From Rubrobacter calidifluminis (GTDB lineage Bacteria; Actinomycetota; Rubrobacteria; Rubrobacterales; Rubrobacteraceae), in NCBI RefSeq assembly GCF_028617075.1, contig NZ_JAQKGV010000011.1, positions 1-64,000 of the forward strand: 64,000 nt of DNA, in the 5' to 3' direction. Positions 3,966 through 51,769 of this stretch are shown piece after piece. Each line of letters starts with the position of its first letter. Position 1 is the first letter of the stretch. The position numbers and the translations under genes were made by a program. The notes under the pieces were generated by a model. That model worked only from the letters and a program-made list of their open reading frames with translations. It searched no databases and had not been told where the DNA came from.

Positions 3966-4730
3966 TTGAGACTCAAGATTGCTCTTTCGCCCGAAGATGG
4001 CATCCTGTGCCTTCCCCTGCAGTACAACAGCACCCTGCAGGGGTTCATCTACGCTAACCTCGACCGGGCCCTTTCGGGCTGGTTGCACGAGGAGGGACAC
4101 GCCTACGAGAAGCGACGCTTCAAGCTCTTCGTCTTCTCCCGGCTCTTTGGGAAGCGTGAGATCTCGAAGGGCAGGGTACGCTTCTTGCGGGGAGCCCATT
4201 TCTACCTCTCCTCGGCCGACCCGGACGTGCTCTGCTCGCTGGGGGAGCACCTGCTGAGGAAACCATCCGTGGAGCTCGGCAGGAGGAGTTGTCTCGTGGA
4301 AGAGGTCGCCGTGGAGCCCGAGCCGGAGATGAACGGGGGGAAGCCCGTGATCGTCAGGGCCCTCTCCCCCATCACCGCCTACACGACGCTCGCCGCACCC
4401 GATGGCAAAAAGAAGACCTATTACTACTCACCTTACGAAGAGGAGTGGAGCAAGTCCCTGGTGGACAACATCAAACGCAAGGTTTTGGCGCTGGGCTGGG
4501 ATACAGACCCCGAGGAGGATCTGGAAGAGGCGAGCATCAGGCCGTACCGGGTGCGGAGCGCGGACCAGAAGGTCCTGCGCTTCAAGGGCACCGTCGTCAA
4601 GGGTTGGATGGGCCTCTACGAGCTGAGGATGCCCCGTCCGTACCTGCAGCTCGCCTACGACACCGGCTTGGGAAGCAAGAACTCACAAGAATCTGGCATA
4701 CCTTCCACAACACGGGGGTCAAAACGGTAG
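3966..4730 (+). CDS. cas6: Cas6 pre-crRNA endoribonuclease, 3' end replaced by prophage DNA
   Basis: Cas6 cuts the CRISPR transcript within its repeats and supplies crRNA to the effector complexes. The start MRLKIALSPEDG, then LPLQYNSTLQGFIYANL, fits the Cas6 N-terminal fold. TTG 3966 is preceded by gaggaggggg. The first 239 residues are host-coded, up to GLGSKN. The core GAACT (4679-4683) then passes into phage DNA, which supplies SQESGIPSTTRGSKR and a stop, giving 254 residues. The host's own ending survives at 51719-51769. The lost part includes the second half of the Gly-rich loop (QGFGM), so activity is uncertain. This is the only cas6 in the window for both CRISPR modules. Confidence 0.88.
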   Translation: MRLKIALSPEDGILCLPLQYNSTLQGFIYANLDRALSGWLHEEGHAYEKRRFKLFVFSRLFGKREISKGRVRFLRGAHFYLSSADPDVLCSLGEHLLRKPSVELGRRSCLVEEVAVEPEPEMNGGKPVIVRALSPITAYTTLAAPDGKKKTYYYSPYEEEWSKSLVDNIKRKVLALGWDTDPEEDLEEASIRPYRVRSADQKVLRFKGTVVKGWMGLYELRMPRPYLQLAYDTGLGSKNSQESGIPSTTRGSKR

Positions 4731-6259
4731 GTTATCCTGACTCGGGTCTTCCCCTTCTCGTCGCGTCCTGCGGATATCTCCTCGACGAGCAGCCGTACCA
4801 GCTTTTGGCGGACGTCGAAGGCTTCGGGGGTGTCGGCCTCCACCTCCCCGATACGCCGCCTGAGCTCTGCGAGGTACGCGCCGGCTGACTCCGCGAGCTC
4901 CCTCTTCTGGTCCTTTTTAGCGAGGTCGCTCTTCGTTGCCTCTATGAGGAGCTGCAGGTTCTCGGTCCTCAGGCGGAGGTCCTCGAGGTAGGAGCCAAGC
5001 TCCTCGTCGTCCAGGTGTCCCATGGCGTACATCCTGACGTAGCGGTCCTTCTCGGCATGCTTCGCAGCGAGGCGTCTCTCGAGGTCGGCGAGGCGGTCCT
5101 CGAGCTCTCTTTTCTCGCCTTCCGTATCGAGCTGCTCCTTTAGCCTCTCCAGAAGAGAGCCTGGGTCCTGGAGAAACCGACGCACATCAGACCACACCAG
5201 GGACTCTATCCACTCGGCGCGTATGTATGGCGCATGCCCGCGGGTGGCCTTGGGGTTTTTCTCCCTGCGGGTGCGGTGGTCGTTCGCACACCTGTAGTAG
5301 TAGAGCTTCTTGTTCTTGCTCCTCGTCGGGTGGCCGACATAGGCTCCTCCGCAGACCTCGCAGCGCATGAGGCCGCTAAGGAGGTACTTGCGGTCCGTGG
5401 GGCGGTTGTAGCGGCGCTTGTTCTCGGAGAGACTCTCTATGGCGCGCCGCTGCAGAGAGGGCTCTACTATGGCCGGGGTCTTTCTGACTATCGGGTCTTT
5501 CCCCCCGTTTGCCCGGATGAGGTGCTCCCCGCTGTAGGCACCCTGACGGCAGATATTGTGTATCGTCCTGGTCGACCAGGCGGGGCCGTGCTGGCGCTCC
5601 CTCCCGCGGTACTTCATCCCCGGAGCCGGCACGCCGAGCGAGTTCAGACGCTCCGCCTCTGAGTAGAGCGTCCCTCCAGAGGCTATGTTGGAGATAATCT
5701 GCCGGACCACACGAGCCTCCTCCTCGACCACCACGAAGGTGCCGTCTTCGCCTATGTCGTAGCCGTAGGGGATTCGTCCCGACTGTTTTCCGGCCCGGTA
5801 GGCCCGGTGCAGGCCGTGCGTGGTCCTCTCGCGTATCGTCCCGCGCTCGAACTCGGCGAAGGAGGCGAGCATCTGGAAAATGAGCCGGCCCGCAGGTGTG
5901 GAGGTGTCTACCGGCTCGGTCGCGCTCTTTAGCGCTACCTTCGCCGCCTCGAGCCGGTCGTGTGCGTCAACGGTGACAAGGAGCGTCCGGCCTAGCCGGT
6001 CGAGCTTGTACACCAGCACCACACCGAAGGCCCCTTCGCTGGCTGCCTCCAGCATCTGCCTCCCAGCCGACCTCTCGTGTACCGGGACCGTCCCGGAGAC
6101 TCCCTCATCACGGTAGGTTTCCACGACCGTAAGGCCGTAGAGCGAGGCGTACTGGGTGAGAAACTCCTCCTGCGTTGCCATCGACATCCGCTCGACCTGT
6201 TCCTCGGAGGAGACGCGCATGTACAGCGCGACGCGGCCTTCCCCTTCCCTCTCTGGCAT
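4655..6259 (-). CDS. int: Large serine integrase of the prophage
   Basis: A 534-residue large serine recombinase. RVALYMRVSSEEQ places the nucleophile at Ser17. YKLDRLGR is the resolvase signature, and SFAEFERGTIRERT with GRIPYGYD leads into the recombinase domain. A zinc ribbon follows (CEVCGGAYVGHP..YYYRC), then a coiled-coil stretch (LADLERRLAAKHAEKDRYV). Start is ATG 6259. The gene crosses attL, so its last seven residues after CEF (LLPKPVS) and its stop are host DNA antisense to cas6. In the rebuilt free phage the frame continues with EKVSTNVSLKFSLVYCSLR and stops, giving about 546 residues. Confidence 0.95.
   Translation of the reverse strand: MPEREGEGRVALYMRVSSEEQVERMSMATQEEFLTQYASLYGLTVVETYRDEGVSGTVPVHERSAGRQMLEAASEGAFGVVLVYKLDRLGRTLLVTVDAHDRLEAAKVALKSATEPVDTSTPAGRLIFQMLASFAEFERGTIRERTTHGLHRAYRAGKQSGRIPYGYDIGEDGTFVVVEEEARVVRQIISNIASGGTLYSEAERLNSLGVPAPGMKYRGRERQHGPAWSTRTIHNICRQGAYSGEHLIRANGGKDPIVRKTPAIVEPSLQRRAIESLSENKRRYNRPTDRKYLLSGLMRCEVCGGAYVGHPTRSKNKKLYYYRCANDHRTRREKNPKATRGHAPYIRAEWIESLVWSDVRRFLQDPGSLLERLKEQLDTEGEKRELEDRLADLERRLAAKHAEKDRYVRMYAMGHLDDEELGSYLEDLRLRTENLQLLIEATKSDLAKKDQKRELAESAGAYLAELRRRIGEVEADTPEAFDVRQKLVRLLVEEISAGRDEKGKTRVRITYRFDPRVVEGMPDSCEFLLPKPVS
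4679..4683. other. attL: attL core GAACT (host cas6 / phage left junction)
   Basis: GAACT at 4679-4683 is shared with 51715-51719. Host sequence lies to the left (cas6 codons ending GLGSKN) and phage sequence to the right. Joining left host DNA to right host DNA across this core restores the cas6 frame exactly. A core of only five bases fits a serine integrase, which needs little identity. Confidence 0.9.
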
Positions 6260-6291: not shown

Positions 6292-6513
6292 CTAGGAGAG
6301 TAGGTCGACCAGAGAGACGCCCAGAGCACAGGCGATACGGTAGAGGGTGGAGAGCCTTGGGTTCGACTCGCCGCGTTCGACGAGCGAGAGGCCATTGCGC
6401 GTCATTTCGCACTCTGCGGCGAGCTCTTCGAGCGTCATCTTACGCTCTTTCCTGAGGGACCGTATCCGGGTCCCCACTCGCCGCTGAAGTTCCTCCAGGC
6501 CCTCGGTCTTCAC
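6292..6513 (-). CDS. Small XRE-type repressor
   Basis: About 73 residues with an XRE helix-turn-helix: RIRSLRKERKMTLEELA, then SLVERGESNPRLSTLYRIA and ending ALGVSLVDLLS. GTG 6513 is chosen because an upstream in-frame GTG at 6576 would put the palindromic operator (6546-6564) inside the coding region. A TATGGT box just upstream would give an almost leaderless mRNA. Next to the integrase and divergent from a strong promoter, it probably represses the 6634-8614 operon and itself. Confidence 0.75.
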   Translation of the reverse strand: MKTEGLEELQRRVGTRIRSLRKERKMTLEELAAECEMTRNGLSLVERGESNPRLSTLYRIACALGVSLVDLLS

Positions 6514-6545: not shown

Positions 6546-6598
6546 TTTGGAAATTTTTTCCAAATACACTTGACACACCTCCTGCCTCCTACTATACT
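6546..6598 (+). promoter_or_regulatory. Consensus promoter with palindromic operator
   Basis: TTGACA (6570-6575), 17 bases, TATACT (6593-6598) is close to an ideal sigma-70 promoter reading rightward. Just before it lies TTTGGAAA-TTT-TTTCCAAA (6546-6564), a perfect 8-bp inverted repeat, and a half copy (TTGGAAA) follows the -10 box. The site is placed to control both the rightward operon and the leftward repressor. Confidence 0.8.
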
Positions 6599-6633
6599 TG
6601 GAAACGTAAAGAGAAGACTAGAAAGGAGAGGAA

Positions 6634-6981
6634 ATGGACCTCCGGAAGGCGAAGAGAATAGGTCGGGAGTGGAAGAAGCAGGGCGGAGAGATTCGGGTCG
6701 TTATGGAGGACGGTGGAGAGCTCGACCGGTACGAGCTCTCCGAGGCCATCAAACGCTACCTCATCCGGACGGACCGCGATGAGGCAAACGGGATTGTCCG
6801 GACTGCCTCGTTTGTCGGCCGGGACGGTGCCGAGCGTACCATCCGGTGGGTCAGCCCCGGGGCATATACCCTATCTACCCCGTCCGGGGAGTACGAGTAC
6901 TCCTCAACCAAAATTGAGGAGTACATGAGGAAGCAGCGTGGTGCGGAGTTTGTCCTCCGCACCGGAGAAGAGGGGAGGTAA
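6634..6981 (+). CDS. Phage protein of unknown function (115 aa), first gene of the lysogeny-side operon
   Basis: A 115-residue charged soluble protein starting at ATG 6634 behind aaaggagaggaa. Its N-terminal part is rich in Lys, Arg and Glu (DLRKAKRIGREWKKQGGEIR). The middle suggests a small beta-rich fold (TIRWVSPGAYTLSTPSGEYEY). No family was recognised. It is the first gene after the consensus promoter and is probably expressed in the lysogen or early after infection. Confidence 0.7.
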   Translation: MDLRKAKRIGREWKKQGGEIRVVMEDGGELDRYELSEAIKRYLIRTDRDEANGIVRTASFVGRDGAERTIRWVSPGAYTLSTPSGEYEYSSTKIEEYMRKQRGAEFVLRTGEEGR

Positions 6982-6985
6982 GGAA

Positions 6986-7330
6986 GTGGCTCTTTACAAG
7001 GAACTGGAGGCCTACCGGATGAAGATGGTGGACCTCCTTGAGAGGCAGGAGGACGCGGGTGACCCCCAAGCGGAGGCCACCCGCGAGATAATCGCGGTGC
7101 TGGCGGCCGAGCAGGATGGGATCCTCCAGCGGTCTTATAACCGTGGCTGGGAGGATTACCAGGCAGGCCGGTTCGTGCGTGGGATACTCCCCGCGCACCT
7201 GGCGAGTTACTACCGCCGTCGCGGCTTTACCGAAGTCGATGCGGACTTCTCCGACCTCAGCGAGGACGAGAAGGAACATTACCGCAGTCCGTTCCGCTTC
7301 TACGGCCCAGACGGACTGGGCCGTAGTTAG
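6986..7330 (+). CDS. Phage protein of unknown function (114 aa)
   Basis: Begins at GTG 6986 (VALYKELEAYRMKMVDLLERQ) behind aggggaggtaagga, five bases after the previous stop. The first two thirds are helical and acidic; the end carries FRFYGPDGLGRS. No cysteines, signal peptide or membrane segment are seen. Tight spacing marks it as part of the same operon. Function unknown. Confidence 0.65.
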   Translation: MALYKELEAYRMKMVDLLERQEDAGDPQAEATREIIAVLAAEQDGILQRSYNRGWEDYQAGRFVRGILPAHLASYYRRRGFTEVDADFSDLSEDEKEHYRSPFRFYGPDGLGRS

Positions 7331-7344
7331 AAGAAAGGAGAGTC

Positions 7345-7632
7345 GTGAGCTGCGAAATCTGCGGCGGGGTGACCACCTGCCCGGGAGGGAAATACTCCCT
7401 CGTCTTGCGTCCACCGGACGAGTATGTCCGGAACGCGGAGAAGGTGGACCAGCTCCCGGGCTGGACCCGGACTCATACCACCGGCCACGGGAAATGGTTC
7501 GTCCAGGATGCCGGGCCTAGCGGCACCCGGCTTGAGCTGGTCGGGGCCAAGCAGGCCCGGCGCGTCGAGGCCCACTACGGCGTTGAGCCACGGTGGGTCG
7601 GCATGTGCACGTACGCAGTGTACGTGCGCTGA
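7345..7632 (+). CDS. Phage protein of unknown function with N-terminal cysteines (95 aa)
   Basis: Starts at GTG 7345 after agaaaggagag. The first 12 residues, MSCEICGGVTTC, hold three cysteines in a CxxC-type arrangement that could bind a metal. The rest is mixed and tryptophan-bearing (LPGWTRTHTTGHGKWFVQDAG). Length and position fit a small host-takeover or lysogenic-conversion protein, but no family was recognised. Confidence 0.65.
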   Translation: MSCEICGGVTTCPGGKYSLVLRPPDEYVRNAEKVDQLPGWTRTHTTGHGKWFVQDAGPSGTRLELVGAKQARRVEAHYGVEPRWVGMCTYAVYVR

Positions 7633-7649
7633 AGGAGAAGGGAGGAAGA

Positions 7650-8240
7650 GTGACCGCTATCGTTCTTACGAAAGACTATCGGTTCCTTCTGGTCGAGAGA
7701 AGGTTTTGCGACGAGGAGGAGAGAAACCGGCACTACGCCGTTGAGATGCCGCGCACATGGAACGGTATCGTCTACGATATCGACGCGTACCGTCGCCTCG
7801 CGAAGAGTCGCAGCCTCGCGTTTGTGGACGAGACCACGAAGGGAAATGACGACCATCCGTTCTCCGGCCCCTACTCCGGGGAGCCGGAGACTTTCGATGT
7901 CGGGGGTTACCGGGTTATCTCCATACTCCTCCCCTGGGAGGCTCGTGTGGTGCTTCGCCAGTGGGAGCGTGGTGAGTCCCCGGATTGGGACTCTCTCACT
8001 CCAGAGTGCGTGGCCGCTGGTCACGGCCGGGAGAAAGAGAGAATGCTCCTCCGCTCCGCGTGGCATATTGACGAGGGGGGCGTAGCGCGGGAACGGCTGG
8101 ATATCCCTTGGCCGGACCAGGAGGCCGTACGGCAGACCGAGGCCGGACGGCTGGCGGTGAAGAGGCTTTGGAACTCCTGGGCCTCTGCGTATGCCGGCTA
8201 CGAGGAGTCCAGCGTACCTGGTACGCCTTTCTACGAGTAG
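7650..8240 (+). CDS. Phage protein of unknown function (196 aa)
   Basis: GTG 7650 follows ggaggaaga and gives MTAIVLTKDYRFLLVERRF, which would form an early beta strand. Aromatic and acidic residues are frequent, with many charged pairs and no membrane segments. It is the longest gene of the five-gene operon. The start suggests a compact enzyme or binding fold, but no catalytic motif could be placed. Confidence 0.65.
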   Translation: MTAIVLTKDYRFLLVERRFCDEEERNRHYAVEMPRTWNGIVYDIDAYRRLAKSRSLAFVDETTKGNDDHPFSGPYSGEPETFDVGGYRVISILLPWEARVVLRQWERGESPDWDSLTPECVAAGHGREKERMLLRSAWHIDEGGVARERLDIPWPDQEAVRQTEAGRLAVKRLWNSWASAYAGYEESSVPGTPFYE

Positions 8241-8251
8241 AGGAGGTTGGA

Positions 8252-8614
8252 ATGATAGTCCTTGAGACATATCCCGCCGGCGAGAAGTCCTACGACGGGG
8301 GGGAGTACGGTTTTTGGACCGAATACTCCCCGGAGAACGGACTCGTCCGGAGGAGGTTCCGCACCACGTCGGGCGGCTTCTTCTACTGCCCGACCTGCGG
8401 AGTCTTTGGGGGGGTGTGGGGCGGCTGCTCCACATACCACCCCGAAGAAGAGGAAGACGGCGCGCTCATATCCATCGAGCGCGCCGTGGAGGAGATATCC
8501 TCCGAGGTCGGAGGCCGGAAACCCCCGGAGGAGATCCGCTCTGACCTCCTCTCCGGGGATAGGAGGGTCTACTACTCCCTCTCCTACGAGAGGGAGTTGC
8601 AGTCCCGCGGCTAG
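8252..8614 (+). CDS. Phage protein of unknown function with a CPTCG motif (120 aa)
   Basis: ATG 8252 follows aggaggttgga. The protein is acidic and carries FFYCPTCGVFGGVWGGCSTYH in the middle, a possible metal-binding knuckle with a third cysteine and a histidine. It is the last gene of the rightward operon and is followed by a strong terminator. Function unknown. Confidence 0.65.
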   Translation: MIVLETYPAGEKSYDGGEYGFWTEYSPENGLVRRRFRTTSGGFFYCPTCGVFGGVWGGCSTYHPEEEEDGALISIERAVEEISSEVGGRKPPEEIRSDLLSGDRRVYYSLSYERELQSRG

Positions 8615-8634
8615 AGGAGGCTCTCCTGCCTCCG

Positions 8635-8666
8635 AGCCCCCGGCCATCCGGCCGGGGGCTTTGTCT
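8635..8666 (+). terminator. Rho-independent terminator of the five-gene operon
   Basis: An 11-bp perfect stem AGCCCCCGGCC (8635-8645) and GGCCGGGGGCT (8650-8660) with loop ATCC is followed by TTGTCTT. It ends the unknown operon just after 8614. Confidence 0.85.
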
Positions 8667-8671
8667 TGGTC

Positions 8672-8733: not shown

Positions 8734-9198
8734 ATGCGTATGAGGAGAGTGGTCTATCTTTGCGCACTATGTGCGCTGCTTATGCTAGCGTTTGCGCCAG
8801 CAGCGTTAGCCCAGGCAGACAAAGATTGTTCGGACTTTGCCACACAGCCACAGGCGCAAGCCTACTTCACCTCGCACGGCGGCAGCGCCTCGAACAACTT
8901 TGACAATCTCGACGCCGACCATGACGGGATAGCATGTGAGAGCCTGCCGGGAGGCAGCGCGCCGGCAAGCTCCGCGCCTGCCAGCAGCACGCCTGCGTCG
9001 AGCGCGCCAGCCACGAGCACTCCTGCTTCCAGTGCTCCCGCTGCACAGCAGTATTCCACTCCGTCGACAGGGACCGAGATGGGCGCCGGCGGGAACCTGC
9101 CGCTGCCGAACACCGGCGGGCCGAGCCTGCTTCTGCCGCTCGGGACGGGCGTCCTTGCCGCCGGTGCTCTGCTCATGATCATCACCAGGCGCCGGTAG
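8734..9198 (+). CDS. Secreted, wall-anchored excalibur-domain protein
   Basis: A 154-residue protein with a signal peptide (MRRVVYLCALCALLMLAF, cut near ALAQA). An excalibur calcium-binding domain follows (DCSDFATQ...DADHDGIACESLP), then a linker rich in Pro, Ala and Ser in 'SSAPA' type repeats. It ends in LPNTG, a hydrophobic helix and RRR, the layout of a sortase substrate. ATG 8734 has ggaggg upstream. It would be displayed on the host wall by the lysogen, a lysogenic-conversion gene. It shares the excalibur domain with the next gene. Confidence 0.85.
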   Translation: MRMRRVVYLCALCALLMLAFAPAALAQADKDCSDFATQPQAQAYFTSHGGSASNNFDNLDADHDGIACESLPGGSAPASSAPASSTPASSAPATSTPASSAPAAQQYSTPSTGTEMGAGGNLPLPNTGGPSLLLPLGTGVLAAGALLMIITRRR

Positions 9199-9206
9199 AG
9201 TTCACA

Positions 9207-10166
9207 GTGAAGAAGCTCCTACCTGCACTGGTTGTCCTGCTCCTCGTGCTCTCCGGGTGCGGGGGGCAGGGCTCCGCCTCCAGCAGCACGTCCTCAAGCC
9301 CAGAGGCGCAGCAGGCCAAGATCGGCGGCAGGACGGGCGCGAAGCCAGCCAGGAACAACCATGTAGCGCACCACACGCCACCGGCAACACACCTGAAGAA
9401 AAAACCTGCCCCAGCCAGCAAGCCAAAAGCGAGCAGCAAGCCGGCGAGATCGGCAAGCACGCCCGTCTCCGCTGGCCTCGCTTCTCGTGGCACCGTGGTC
9501 ACCGTCACCCGCGTGGTGGACGGGGATACGATCTACGTCTCTCCTGCAGTGGACGGTCTGACCGACGTAAGGTTGATCGGAGTGGACACTCCAGAGACTC
9601 ATAAACCCGGAACGCCGGTACAACCGTATGGGCCACAGGCCGCGCAGTTTACTACTTCTCACCTCGCTGGTAGAAAGGTCGCACTTGAGACCGACGTCGA
9701 GAAGGTCGATCCGTACGACAGGCTCCTCGCCTACGTATGGACCTCGCCGAACACGATGTTCAACGAGGTTCTGCTAAAAGAGGGATACGCGCAACTCGCC
9801 ACCTTCCCGCCCAACGTGAAGTACGTGGAGCGGTTCAGGGAAGATCAGGCCGAAGCGCGGGCGGCAGGGCGCGGGCTCTGGGGACTTCCACCTAGCCAGC
9901 TCTGTCAGGAAACCGACAGAGGAAACGGGATAGGCGGCGGCTGTTCTACCACGCCGGCGTCTAGCTCACCAGTATCCAGCGCACCCGTAAGCCCTGCTCC
10001 AGCTCCCAGTCCGCCGTCAAGCGGTGCTGCGCCTCCGACCGGTAAGAGCGACTACGACTGCTCAGACTTTCAGACGCAGGCCGAAGCTCAACGCTATCTC
10101 TTGCCCGGAGATCCTTACCACCTCGATGCCGACGGGGACGGCATAGCGTGCGACTCGCTGCCTTAG
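9207..10166 (+). CDS. Secreted nuclease lipoprotein (SNase domain plus excalibur domain)
   Basis: The 319-residue protein opens with a lipoprotein signal (LLLVLSGCGG), so it should be lipidated at the cell surface. After a Lys/Pro/Ala linker comes a thermonuclease domain: VTRVVDGDTIYV, DVRLIGVDTPET, VDPYDRLLAYVW and AAGRGLWG hold the family's calcium and catalytic positions. A Ser/Pro/Ala linker leads to a C-terminal excalibur domain (DYDCSDFQTQAEA). It should degrade extracellular DNA or RNA using calcium. It begins 8 bases after the wall-anchored excalibur gene and probably shares its promoter. Confidence 0.9.
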   Translation: MKKLLPALVVLLLVLSGCGGQGSASSSTSSSPEAQQAKIGGRTGAKPARNNHVAHHTPPATHLKKKPAPASKPKASSKPARSASTPVSAGLASRGTVVTVTRVVDGDTIYVSPAVDGLTDVRLIGVDTPETHKPGTPVQPYGPQAAQFTTSHLAGRKVALETDVEKVDPYDRLLAYVWTSPNTMFNEVLLKEGYAQLATFPPNVKYVERFREDQAEARAAGRGLWGLPPSQLCQETDRGNGIGGGCSTTPASSSPVSSAPVSPAPAPSPPSSGAAPPTGKSDYDCSDFQTQAEAQRYLLPGDPYHLDADGDGIACDSLP

Positions 10167-10213: not shown

Positions 10214-10242
10214 TTGCATTTACTCACGATATGGTGTATATT
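10214..10242 (+). promoter_or_regulatory. Promoter giving a leaderless transcript
   Basis: TTGCAT (10214-10219), 17 bases, TATATT (10237-10242). The expected start of transcription, about 7 bases on, falls on the ATG at 10249, and no ribosome site is present. The following gene is therefore probably translated from a leaderless mRNA, as is common in actinobacteria. Confidence 0.7.
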
Positions 10243-10248
10243 ACGGTC

Positions 10249-10542
10249 ATGGCGGAGAAGGCCGGCATAGTCCAGAGGCTTAAAGAGAGGTTCGGGCTTA
10301 CCCCCTATTTCGAGGACAACGTGGTAAACAACCCCGCCCGCGAGCACCTGCTTCCCTACGTCGAAGCCGCGATAGACGAGGCGGAGGCGAGGGAGGTTCA
10401 GGAAGATAGCAAGGTCCGCCACTTCTGGTATGTGGAGGAGCTTGGGTACCACATCCGGGTAATCACCACCGGAGAGGGAAGGCTCTTCAACGCCCACGAG
10501 GACAGTAACTACACCCGCAAACAGAGGAGGCGAAAGCAGTGA
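10249..10542 (+). CDS. Small protein of a possible toxin-antitoxin pair (97 aa)
   Basis: ATG 10249 is preferred over the ATG at 10231, which lies inside the promoter. The product (MAEKAGIVQRLKERFG...) has a helical first half and ends with strands and a basic tail (GYHIRVITTGEGRLFNA..NYTRKQRRRKQ), a shape seen in small RelE/DUF4258-like toxins. It overlaps the DUF2283 gene by four bases. Pairing of DUF2283 with small basic proteins is known in toxin-antitoxin loci, so this is the likely toxin; the family is not certain. Confidence 0.6.
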   Translation: MAEKAGIVQRLKERFGLTPYFEDNVVNNPAREHLLPYVEAAIDEAEAREVQEDSKVRHFWYVEELGYHIRVITTGEGRLFNAHEDSNYTRKQRRRKQ

Positions 10543-10799
10543 GGCTCAGATACTACCCTGAGACAGATTCGCTCTACGTGGACCTGAGGCCAAGAGAGGA
10601 GCAGTCTTACCGGCAAGGAGAGCACGGCTCGCAGGTGGTCGTCTCCGACGAGATGGTCGTGGACCTCGACGCCGACGGAAAGCCTGTGGGCATAGACATC
10701 CACAGTTTCGCCTCCAGGATCGTAGACCTCTCCCGGCTCGAGCTCGACGGCGTATCCCTCGGCAGATTCACGGCCGGGCTCGCGAAGGCAGGAGCCTGA
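10539..10799 (+). CDS. DUF2283 family protein (86 aa), possible antitoxin
   Basis: The start LRYYPETDSLYVDLRP and the core VVSDEMVVDLDADGKPVGIDI are the hallmarks of DUF2283. These small beta proteins are often encoded next to a toxin-like partner. It overlaps the gene before it (ATGA-type junction GTGA) and is followed within two bases by a helix-turn-helix gene, so the three form one operon. The pair may stabilise the prophage or act in defence. Confidence 0.75.
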   Translation: MRLRYYPETDSLYVDLRPREEQSYRQGEHGSQVVVSDEMVVDLDADGKPVGIDIHSFASRIVDLSRLELDGVSLGRFTAGLAKAGA

Positions 10800-10800
10800 T

Positions 10801-11010
10801 TTGTCGCTCGAAGGTTACGAGACATCCGCCCAGGCAGCCGAGAGGTACGGCATCGACCAGAGCCAGGTGCGCCGCTACTGCGAGGCCGGGCGCATCCCCG
10901 GTGCAGTCAAGGTCGCCAACCGCTGGCTCATTCCCAGGGATGCCTGGCCGGAGCAAACCGGCTTCGGCCGCCCCCCCGAATGGACCAAAAAAGTTTCGGC
11001 GAGTTCTTAA
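10801..11010 (+). CDS. Excisionase-type helix-turn-helix protein (69 aa)
   Basis: TTG 10801 follows the DUF2283 stop by one base. The sequence TSAQAAERYGIDQSQVRRYCEAGRIPGAVKVANRWLIP is the HTH_17 (excisionase/MerR-like) fold: helix-turn-helix and a short wing ending in the usual WLIPRDAW. It could regulate the toxin-antitoxin-like operon, or it could be the recombination directionality factor for the serine integrase. The sequence does not decide between these. Confidence 0.75.
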   Translation: MSLEGYETSAQAAERYGIDQSQVRRYCEAGRIPGAVKVANRWLIPRDAWPEQTGFGRPPEWTKKVSASS

Positions 11011-13893: not shown

Positions 13894-14143
13894 GGATATC
13901 TCCTCTCTTGGTTTCTAGGACGCCTCCCGGGCGGGGACTCTCGGGAGGCCCAGTGCGCTCCGGGCAGTCGAGCCCCGCGAGCCTCGCGCGCCACAGCACC
14001 ATGACGTTGTCCGCGAGAGTCGCCCGGACGTAGAGGGTGTCGCCGTCTACGACCGGTCCTCTCTTCCCGGACGGGCTCTTTGACGGCTCGGCGTAGAAGA
14101 TGTTGTTGGGCTTCGGGGGCGCCGGTCCTGCAACCTCAGTCAT
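13703..14143 (-). pseudogene. Truncated thermonuclease-like fragment
   Basis: The frame starts at ATG 14143 and reads GPVVDGDTLYVRATLADNV then LWRARLAGLDCPER, the first strands of an SNase domain (VDGDT and RLxGxDxPE). After about residue 70 it loses all similarity and overlaps the protease gene for 190 bases, so the remaining nuclease core is absent. A complete relative is carried at 9207-10166. It is best read as a decayed nuclease gene, though a short stand-alone protein cannot be excluded. Confidence 0.5.
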
Positions 14144-49648: not shown

Positions 49649-50085
49649 CACGCCGCCCCCTCGAAGCACTCATCGCAAAGGAGATCCCCTTCGAAATAGG
49701 AGAGAGGGAGATCTCCCGCCCACCTCGGGTCACCCGCCACGACCTCGTGCAGGTCGCGGTGCCGAAAGCGGTTCCCGCACCCGGCACACTCGGCCGTGGT
49801 GCCAAGCACAAAACCGACGGCGATTATGTGCTTGCACCGGTACCCGGCGTCGTCCCGGTGCCGGTACTGGTAGTCGGGGCAGGTGCACTCCTGCGACCTG
49901 TAGTCGACGCGGTAGGTGCCGCCCGAGGAGCTAGGCACCTCCCAGATCCCGCCCCCGAGCGCCCGAAAATCCGCCATCCGCTCCCGCGCCAGATCCACAC
50001 CGGCGAGAAGGCGGGGATGCCGCTCCCGAAGCGTTTCCCGCGAGACGTGCTCCTCCACGTTCCCCTGAACCGATATACTCTTCAC
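49648..50085 (-). CDS. SWIM zinc-finger protein, first gene of the early leftward operon
   Basis: 145 residues from GTG 50085. The SWIM motif CTCPDYQYRHRDDAGYRCKH (CxC..CxH) lies in the middle. Two further CxxC pairs follow (CAGCGN and CDEC). SWIM domains bind DNA or proteins. It is the first gene after the leftward promoter and operator, so it is probably among the first made on induction. Confidence 0.8.
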   Translation of the reverse strand: MKSISVQGNVEEHVSRETLRERHPRLLAGVDLARERMADFRALGGGIWEVPSSSGGTYRVDYRSQECTCPDYQYRHRDDAGYRCKHIIAVGFVLGTTAECAGCGNRFRHRDLHEVVAGDPRWAGDLPLSYFEGDLLCDECFEGAA

Positions 50086-50278: not shown

Positions 50279-50689
50279 ATGATTGTGGCGGAGAGAAGGT
50301 CCAGGCGGGAGATGACCGAGTTTGGCAAGACGCTGAACAAGCTCATGGTCAACCATGAGGTGTTCGGTGGATGGCAGGAGCTGCGCCGAAGGCTGGACGC
50401 CGTGGGCTACCATATAGGGCAATCCCGGCTCTCGCAGTATCTCTACGGAGATAGGAACCCACAGGATCCGCAGAAATTATTCGACGCAATCTCTGCCGCC
50501 CTAGGGCTTACTGAAGAGGAAGAGATGCGCCTTGCGTATTCCTTCGCCTACCCAAAGTCCGGCCGGTCCAGAGGCGGGCTCTCCCAGGAAACCATTGACA
50601 AAGCTCGCAGGTTTGAGGGTAAGATAAGAAGCGAGCAGCAGGAGGATAAAGGGGAGAGCTCGCGTGGAGCTAAGGGTCGAGGAGTTTGA
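50279..50689 (+). CDS. Phage repressor-type helix-turn-helix protein (136 aa)
   Basis: ATG 50279 follows taagaggttatcaac. The first 80 residues are a helix-turn-helix: MTEFGKTLNKLMVNHEVFGG, ELRRRLDAVGYHIGQSRLSQ, YLYGDRNPQD. A basic C-terminal tail follows (GLSQETIDKARRFEGKIRSE). It is related along its length to the gene 51068-51388, which faces it. The pair with shared operators looks like a cI/cro-type switch; which one keeps lysogeny cannot be read. Confidence 0.75.
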   Translation: MIVAERRSRREMTEFGKTLNKLMVNHEVFGGWQELRRRLDAVGYHIGQSRLSQYLYGDRNPQDPQKLFDAISAALGLTEEEEMRLAYSFAYPKSGRSRGGLSQETIDKARRFEGKIRSEQQEDKGESSRGAKGRGV

Positions 50690-51071
50690 TGTAGGTCCCA
50701 GCGCAGATGGTTATTTTTTTGTTGATCACTCAGATGATCTTGCGGCTCTGGCGGTAAATCCTGAGCTTCCATCTTTTGTAAAGCGCTCGTGCGAGATACA
50801 AGCGCACGGGCACCTCAAGAAGCGTCCCCCGAAAGGCGGACGGCGATTCATCGTCGAGGTAGAGGAGCCAGAAGACCTCGACCCTAACGCCATCCTAGCA
50901 ATCCGCTCTGTGATCGAAGACCTCCAGCCCGGCTGGGTGGAGGAGGTCAAAGAGGCGTGCAGGCTCGCCAATCACCCGCGAGTCATTGCAGGCTGGTGCG
51001 AACTCTCCCTCTCGGTCGTGGTCGCGATAATCGAGAACCTTAAAGCTAGAGGGGAACTGCCTGAAGACTAG
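50664..51071 (+). CDS. Phage protein of unknown function in the switch region (135 aa)
   Basis: GTG 50664 overlaps the end of the repressor gene by 26 bases. The protein reads MELRVEEFDVGPSADGYFFV, then GGRRFIVEVEEPEDLDPNAI and LQPGWVEEVKEACRLANHPR. It is mixed alpha/beta with a helical end. No family was recognised. Its stop overlaps the convergent gene. Confidence 0.6.
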   Translation: MELRVEEFDVGPSADGYFFVDHSDDLAALAVNPELPSFVKRSCEIQAHGHLKKRPPKGGRRFIVEVEEPEDLDPNAILAIRSVIEDLQPGWVEEVKEACRLANHPRVIAGWCELSLSVVVAIIENLKARGELPED

Positions 51072-51388
51072 CCCCGGAAATTGGCTATGATCCGCTCCTC
51101 CCTTTCTGAGAACTTCCTCTGTCCATAGGCATAGGCCCACGCCAGGCGGCGTCTCTCCTCCTTAGTTAACCGCAGAAGCTCCGAGACGCAGGCCATGAAC
51201 AACGGATCGACATTGCGTTCACCATTGAGGAGGTAGCTCAACCGGGGCTGGCTAATCTTGTACCCACCCTTGTTTAGAAGGCGCAGCAGGTCTTGCCTTC
51301 GCTCAATCCCTCTCGTAAGCATAAGGCTATAAAGAGTGCGGCCAAACTCGGACATTTGCTGGGTTCCCTGCCTACTCTCAGTGAGCAT
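51068..51388 (-). CDS. Second repressor-type helix-turn-helix protein (106 aa)
   Basis: MSEFGRTLYSLMLTRGIERR, DLLRLLNKGGYKISQPRLSY and LLNGERNVDPLFMACVSELL form a helix-turn-helix akin to that of 50279-50689. The true start may be the internal ATG (QQMSEFG). It is read leftward from an extended -10 box (TGA-TAAAAT) that overlaps operator 2, so it probably regulates itself and the rightward promoter. Confidence 0.75.
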   Translation of the reverse strand: MLTESRQGTQQMSEFGRTLYSLMLTRGIERRQDLLRLLNKGGYKISQPRLSYLLNGERNVDPLFMACVSELLRLTKEERRRLAWAYAYGQRKFSEREERIIANFRG

Positions 51389-51719: not shown

Positions 51720-51769
51720 GGCAGGGATTTGGCATGATCGCCATCGCATCCAACGGGAGAAAGAGATGA
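51719..51769 (+). pseudogene. cas6: Detached 3' end of cas6
   Basis: The codons read WQGFGMIAIASNGRKR and stop at TGA 51767-51769. They hold the QGFGM half of the Cas6 glycine-rich loop. Joined to 3966-4682 they give a 255-residue Cas6. The stop overlaps the cas8b ATG as ATGA, proof that the two were adjacent before the prophage came. Confidence 0.92.

Follow-up and report, generated by a model that had tools for sequence, protein, structure and literature searches.

The five small genes at 6634–8614 of the window (the whole stretch of 64,000 nt that was analysed, which lies within a 119,328-base contig, C11, of a 3.09-Mb genome, G000) are best read as a replaceable, moron-like accessory transcription unit of a temperate phage, which would be controlled by an HTH protein and is probably expressed early. 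We place the probability of this reading at about one half. It starts from what is observed, namely the DNA elements, the reading frames, the absence of known families and the location of a relative of the third gene. Morons are lysogenic accessory loci of temperate phages, located between the integrase and neighbouring modules. The block resembles them in its small, foreign-looking genes, in its own promoter and terminator, and in its variation between related phages. It differs in its operator palindrome and in an HTH gene linked to the integrase, which suggest that it would be repressed.

Signals and products of the five-gene block

The promoter (TTGACA-17-TATACT, plus strand, 6570–6598) was identified by a motif scan with shuffled controls. 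It is the sole match of at least 11/12 on both strands of the contig, and promoters of this quality were produced by 9 of 5000 local dinucleotide shuffles. Upstream of its −35 box lies the operator O1 (6546–6564), a perfect palindrome (TTTGGAAA-TTT-TTTCCAAA) whose centre falls near −50 relative to this promoter, assuming a start site ∼7 nt past the −10 box. An inverted-repeat scan of the contig (perfect arms of at least 8, spacer of 0–6) returned 24 perfect inverted repeats, with O1 as the sole AT-rich member. Palindromes of the O1 type were produced by 60 of 5000 local shuffles (1.2%), and a chance occurrence of ∼1% is not negligible for the palindrome by itself. A second half-site, TTGGAAA, covers the end of the −10 box (6598–6604, plus strand). 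The motif has three plus-strand copies within the 64 kb (at 6547, 6598 and 63719), and the copy on the −10 box strengthens the reading of the promoter as a regulated one. Both the near-consensus promoter and the perfect operator palindrome that had been proposed in a preliminary description of this DNA are therefore borne out, the half-site being an addition. At the other end of the block, an intrinsic terminator-like hairpin is followed by an interrupted T tract (8634–8668, plus strand). The hairpin itself (8634–8661) was missed by a simple scan; the 76-nt stretch that contains it has a folding energy of −44.6 kcal/mol with a z-score of −3.9, in agreement with the strong terminator described earlier. 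Judged by these sequence signals, the block has a promoter and a terminator of its own.

The genes, all on the plus strand, encode proteins of 115 (g1, 6634–6981), 114 (g2, 6986–7330), 95 (g3, 7345–7632), 196 (g4, 7650–8240) and 120 residues (g5, 8252–8614). The products of g1, g2, g4 and g5 are ORFans; that of g1 has a pI of 8.9, and those of g2 (pI 4.9), g4 and g5 are acidic. The g3 protein has a C-x2-C-x5-C N-terminus, and g5 contains a CPTC...C stretch with a zinc-ribbon-like appearance that scores below the cut-off. Successive genes are separated by 4, 14, 17 and 11 nt. They had been described as coupled or closely spaced, and the close spacing holds, but with these starts none of them overlap. 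Each is preceded by a purine-rich, Shine-Dalgarno-like stretch, and for each the codon-usage score is highest in its own frame (0.36, 0.40, 0.21, 0.21 and 0.46 for g1 to g5). A control of 295 off-frame pieces gave a mean of −0.57 (sd 0.36) and a maximum of 0.23, which lies slightly above the scores of g3 and g4.

As stated earlier for this block, no family could be recognised. None of the five proteins matched a family above the curated cut-offs of Pfam or NCBIfam, and PHROGs and PADLOC gave nothing at E < 0.01. Several sub-threshold candidates were considered and not used: Zn_ribbon_RRN7 for g5 (E 0.0055, 16.8 bits, under a cut-off of 27.1); Ppnp for g1 (E 0.049); Cas_VVA1548 (E 0.18), ChaB (E 0.089) and the PADLOC families NsnC (E 0.048) and CARF1 (E 0.06) for g2; and TIGR02465 (E 0.059) and a late activator PHROG (E 0.31) for g3. 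Scans of viral contigs with exact peptide patterns, suited to near relatives only, gave no relative of any of the five genes taken singly or of g3 and its relative taken as a pair. Against 50,697 phage records, g1, g3, g4 and g5 had no match, g2 had two (both E 0.9) and the relative of g3 had two (E 0.3). The preliminary description had also proposed structure prediction, which for g1 and g3 was of no usable confidence. The mean pLDDT was 58.8 for g1 and 45.1 for the g3 pair, and neither model was used; the g1 model had no match in the PDB at an E-value of 0.001 or better, and searches of PDB sequences with the g3 pair and g4 gave nothing usable.

A search of 346 genomes of the phylum per query, own genome included, matched 1, 5, 21, 4 and 6 other genomes for g1 to g5, respectively, at E ≤ 0.01. 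Since ∼3.5 matches are expected by chance at this threshold, the only one that we count is that of g3 in G001. The best match of g2 (2.9e-5, 26% identity) contains an internal stop. One of the 21 matches of g3 is clear (2.7e-19) and the remainder are at 5.5e-4 or weaker; the excess of g3 matches includes weak ones with internal stops in G000, G001 and G002.

The clear relative of g3 is encoded on the minus strand of a related Rubrobacteraceae prophage, C155 of the same-genus genome G001 (L049, 11873–12274). The two proteins are 49% identical in the alignment, and C3, C6, C12, H44 and H77 are conserved. This relative follows a SWIM-like gene in a leftward run of genes that matches the window at 49–50 kb, which is the early or replication side (the SWIM score was obtained with the gene at 49651–50085 of the window). 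Its place suggests a role in early phage biology as much as one in lysogenic defence. Elsewhere, the window genes at 10225–10976 and part of the nuclease gene have 82% DNA identity in C155 (L048 and L049). The integrase of C155 is a different one, of the tyrosine type as named from its translation, and its gene directly abuts the homologue of the gene at 10231. The five-gene block is absent at this equivalent place, and no relatives of g1, g2, g4 or g5 were found in 40 kb of C155. The prophage has been rearranged relative to its sister.

These comparisons bear on a different reading, by which the block consists of ordinary, fast-evolving early phage genes (for DNA metabolism or takeover) that have no defence role and were rearranged to a position next to the integrase gene. 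The place of the g3 relative in the sister phage, the rearrangement itself and the faint resemblance of g3 and g5 to zinc-binding proteins all suit such an origin. However, the promoter, operator and terminator of the block are separate from the other early genes, and we regard this reading as somewhat unlikely. The accessory unit that we prefer also has a point against it, in that only one of its five genes has a located relative.

A probably integrase-linked regulator and a proposed accessory slot

To the left of the block, a domain search identified a large serine integrase with Resolvase, Recombinase and zinc ribbon domains (4655–6259, minus strand). Directly upstream of its gene, on the same strand and divergent from the block, lies the gene of an XRE/HTH_3 regulator (6292–6513; 73 residues from a GTG at 6513), the likely ligand of O1. 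We read this regulator as integrase-linked because an HTH gene likewise directly precedes the integrase gene in two other elements, L017 and L020. It had been described as the repressor; its position beside the block, together with the integrase, holds, but it is unlikely to be the main immunity repressor. That role was set aside since the gene is paired with the integrase and since the sister phage, at its end, has counterparts of the right-end regulators instead, namely of those at 50279 (30.9% over 55 residues), 50664 (40.5% over 79 residues) and 51071 (29.3% over 82 residues). No clear counterpart of the HTH gene at 6292 was found in C155. The main lysogeny switch more likely resides in the region 50279–51355. 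Regulators within it are related, and two of them are 48% identical to each other.

The position divergent from the HTH and integrase genes is occupied in L020 by other small, uncharacterised genes, followed by a DUF4258/DUF2283 pair, which resembles a pair of the toxin-antitoxin type. The window has a DUF2283 gene downstream of the block (10539–10796), and its partner (10231–10539) is without a Pfam match; as a pair they occupy 10231–10799. The simplest reading is that of a replaceable accessory slot beside the HTH and integrase genes. Between the block and the DUF2283 gene with its partner, the stretch 8734–10166 encodes two Excalibur-domain proteins, one of which is staphylococcal-nuclease-like. 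In L017 and L020, no TTGGAA motif was found in front of the HTH gene, indicating that O1 is not a conserved operator of such elements.

We propose that the integrase-linked HTH protein binds O1, between the two divergent units. By way of the additional half-site at the −10 box it would repress the promoter of the five genes, and by way of O1 it probably also tunes transcription of its own gene and of the integrase gene. When the protein is absent or low, in the first minutes of infection or upon induction, the strong promoter would fire a burst of the five proteins from a transcript ending at the terminator at 8634–8668. The products would be early-acting proteins of the host-takeover or counter-defence type. 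Some regulators activate from a position near −50. As O1 is centred there, the HTH protein could instead be an activator, and the five genes would then be on in the lysogen.

A rival reading is that of a cassette for lysogenic conversion or anti-phage defence that is expressed constitutively, with O1 serving mainly in autoregulation of the HTH and integrase genes. Such a cassette would be well placed in a variable slot adjoining the integrase gene, with a strong promoter and a terminator of its own, and O1, being upstream of the −35 box, would cover the region of the leftward promoter. The half-site at the −10 box instead points to repression, the relative of g3 belongs to the early gene run of the sister phage, and none of the five proteins matches a PADLOC defence family. 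We consider constitutive defence rather improbable on balance.

A prophage in cas6 and the spacers that match it

The block is carried by a prophage of ∼47 kb that lies within the 3′-terminal part of cas6, which agrees with the earlier placement of the phage in a CRISPR locus. Comparison of the junctions puts the 2-bp core, CA, at 4686–4687 inside cas6 (attL) and at 51722–51723 (attR), where the 3′ end of cas6 follows. When joined at CA, the outer flanks reproduce the empty site of a sister genome, G002, exactly over 65 bases. The three domains of the integrase and the att sites around a 2-bp core identify a large-serine-integrase prophage. In the lysogen, the C-terminus of Cas6 is replaced (QGFGMIAIASNGRKR becomes QESGIPSTTRGSKR) and a GFGM stretch is lost, so that the protein ends in KNSQESGIPSTTRGSKR, compared to KNSQGFGMIAIASNGRKR in G002. 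The genome contains a single match to this Cas6, in a search that could miss a very different second cas6. Beyond the prophage lie cas genes of type I-B (Cas8b/Csh1, Cas7/Csh2, Cas5, Cas3 and Cas4) and type III-B (Cmr1 and Cas10/Cmr2).

The cas6 site is apparently used by more than one type of element. An element of a related Rubrobacteraceae MAG (L017, in C210 of G001) has a 75%-identical serine integrase and an HTH gene at the same site; the neighbours on its element side are, by translation, sugar ABC transporter- and kinase-like rather than phage genes. In C155, the first 75 bases of L048, which precede the tyrosine-type integrase gene, are identical to cas6 (window 4346–4420). They could reflect a junction made in assembly or else a further insertion into cas6; no word of at least 11 bases shared with the tRNA-Gln end was found.

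Our literature search on prophages in cas6 or other cas genes, serine integrases and Rubrobacter prophages, which covered titles and the starts of abstracts, returned none on a prophage in cas6. The nearest published case that we found is that of Streptococcus pyogenes prophages, which integrate into CRISPR loci (Varble 2021, as cited in PMC10359306). As outlined there, a CRISPR locus is likewise the attachment site and immunity may be blunted. In that case the direct repeats are the site, whereas the present prophage enters cas6 at its 3′ end by means of a large serine integrase and exchanges the C-terminus of Cas6. Insertions of IS elements into cas genes are mentioned in the same source (PMC10359306); they too are mobile elements that interrupt a cas gene, but here the element is a site-specific 47-kb prophage and no IS is involved.

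The CRISPR array of the same contig (69329–72990) has 55 repeats, from which 54 spacers were parsed, with one more before the degenerate last repeat (full locus, 69329–73028); other settings parsed 52. The leader end was judged from the degenerate repeat at the opposite end, and the four spacers at the leader end (A0–A3) all match C155. Spacers A0 and A7, which are identical, match C155 at 37/37 positions and the prophage at 34/37. Their protospacer in the prophage lies in the nuclease gene (9877–9913, minus strand, 5′ flank TCG), with mismatches at spacer positions 9, 24 and 27 and an intact seed (the first eight bases). The last spacer matches 9208–9245 with 4/38 mismatches and a 5′ flank of CAG; A50 (6/38 mismatches) and A6 (9/37) also match the prophage, and the matched sites include 14012–14049 and 9139–9175. 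Most of the self-matching protospacers are inside 8734–10166, in the Excalibur and nuclease genes. The 5′ flank is YCR in most of the better matches, A2 (TGA) being an exception. At ≤25% mismatch, 9 of 54 spacers match C155 (40 kb examined) and 4 of 54 the prophage outside the block, compared to 0 of 54 for the block and 0 of 54 for the host part of the contig. Shuffled spacers of both genomes (252 shuffles) never fell under 30.6% mismatch. At the same cut-off, the 30 parsed spacers of G002 had no match to these targets, save one to C155 (8/35). The host was thus immunised against relatives of the phage, and recently so by the logic of leader-end placement.

This lysogen may survive through escape mismatches, through inactivity of the re-tailed Cas6, or through an anti-CRISPR. 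The last would require that at least one of the five products blocks the type I-B or III-B system of the host, before integration and after induction. Confidence in this function overlaps with that in the accessory unit, because an anti-CRISPR is one specific function that such a cassette may have. In size and setting, small ORFans beside an HTH gene are typical of anti-CRISPRs. The spacers that match the prophage (A0/A7, A50, A6 and the last one), and those on the leader side that match the sister phage, point in the same direction; genomes that target themselves are described as an established route to the discovery of anti-CRISPRs (PMC6990116). A self-matching spacer of near identity has been reported in a lysogen with a type I-B system (PMC9723563). 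Against an anti-CRISPR, the three mismatches of A0/A7 or an inactive Cas6 would explain survival without one, the HTH gene is linked to the integrase rather than encoded inside the operon, and searches of Pfam, PHROGs, NCBIfam and PADLOC tied none of g1–g5 to a named family. Anti-CRISPRs are often mutually unrelated in sequence. The acr-aca operon of AcrIB2 from Clostridioides difficile phages (PMC10732046) offers a comparison, as far as that account describes it. The block shares with such operons the small proteins of no family, a nearby HTH gene and host spacers that match the prophage, but here the HTH gene is divergent and paired with the integrase gene, and no sequence relation was found. 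Another acr-aca operon is reportedly described in a study of AcrIF24 (PMC9638941). Of the anti-CRISPR or anti-phage roles suggested in the preliminary description, the self-matching spacers justify a test of the former, and none of the five proteins could be linked to an anti-CRISPR or defence family already known; we hold an anti-CRISPR function to be doubtful, with the odds well against it.

Significance for the lysogen

In the lysogen, CRISPR may already be disabled by the insertion as such, and an anti-CRISPR would then be less necessary there. If the re-tailed Cas6 does not function, the only period that calls for an anti-CRISPR would be that between entry and integration, which fits an early burst from a repressible promoter without proving it. 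A defeat of CRISPR in two steps, in which one or more new I-B or III-B anti-CRISPRs of the cassette act at entry and integration then reversibly silences crRNA maturation through the replaced tail of the sole Cas6 found, is a long shot. If true, it would act in a cell whose array already targets the phage and its relatives.

The gene block itself is a known kind of thing, and the cas6 setting raises its value. In this heat-loving bacterium, a dormant virus sits in a CRISPR gene while the CRISPR memory of the host recognises the virus and its relatives, and the block provides five specific, clonable genes from a phage in a visible arms race with host CRISPR. For the lysogen, the question is whether CRISPR, with the end of Cas6 rewritten by the prophage, is turned off with integration and on again with excision.
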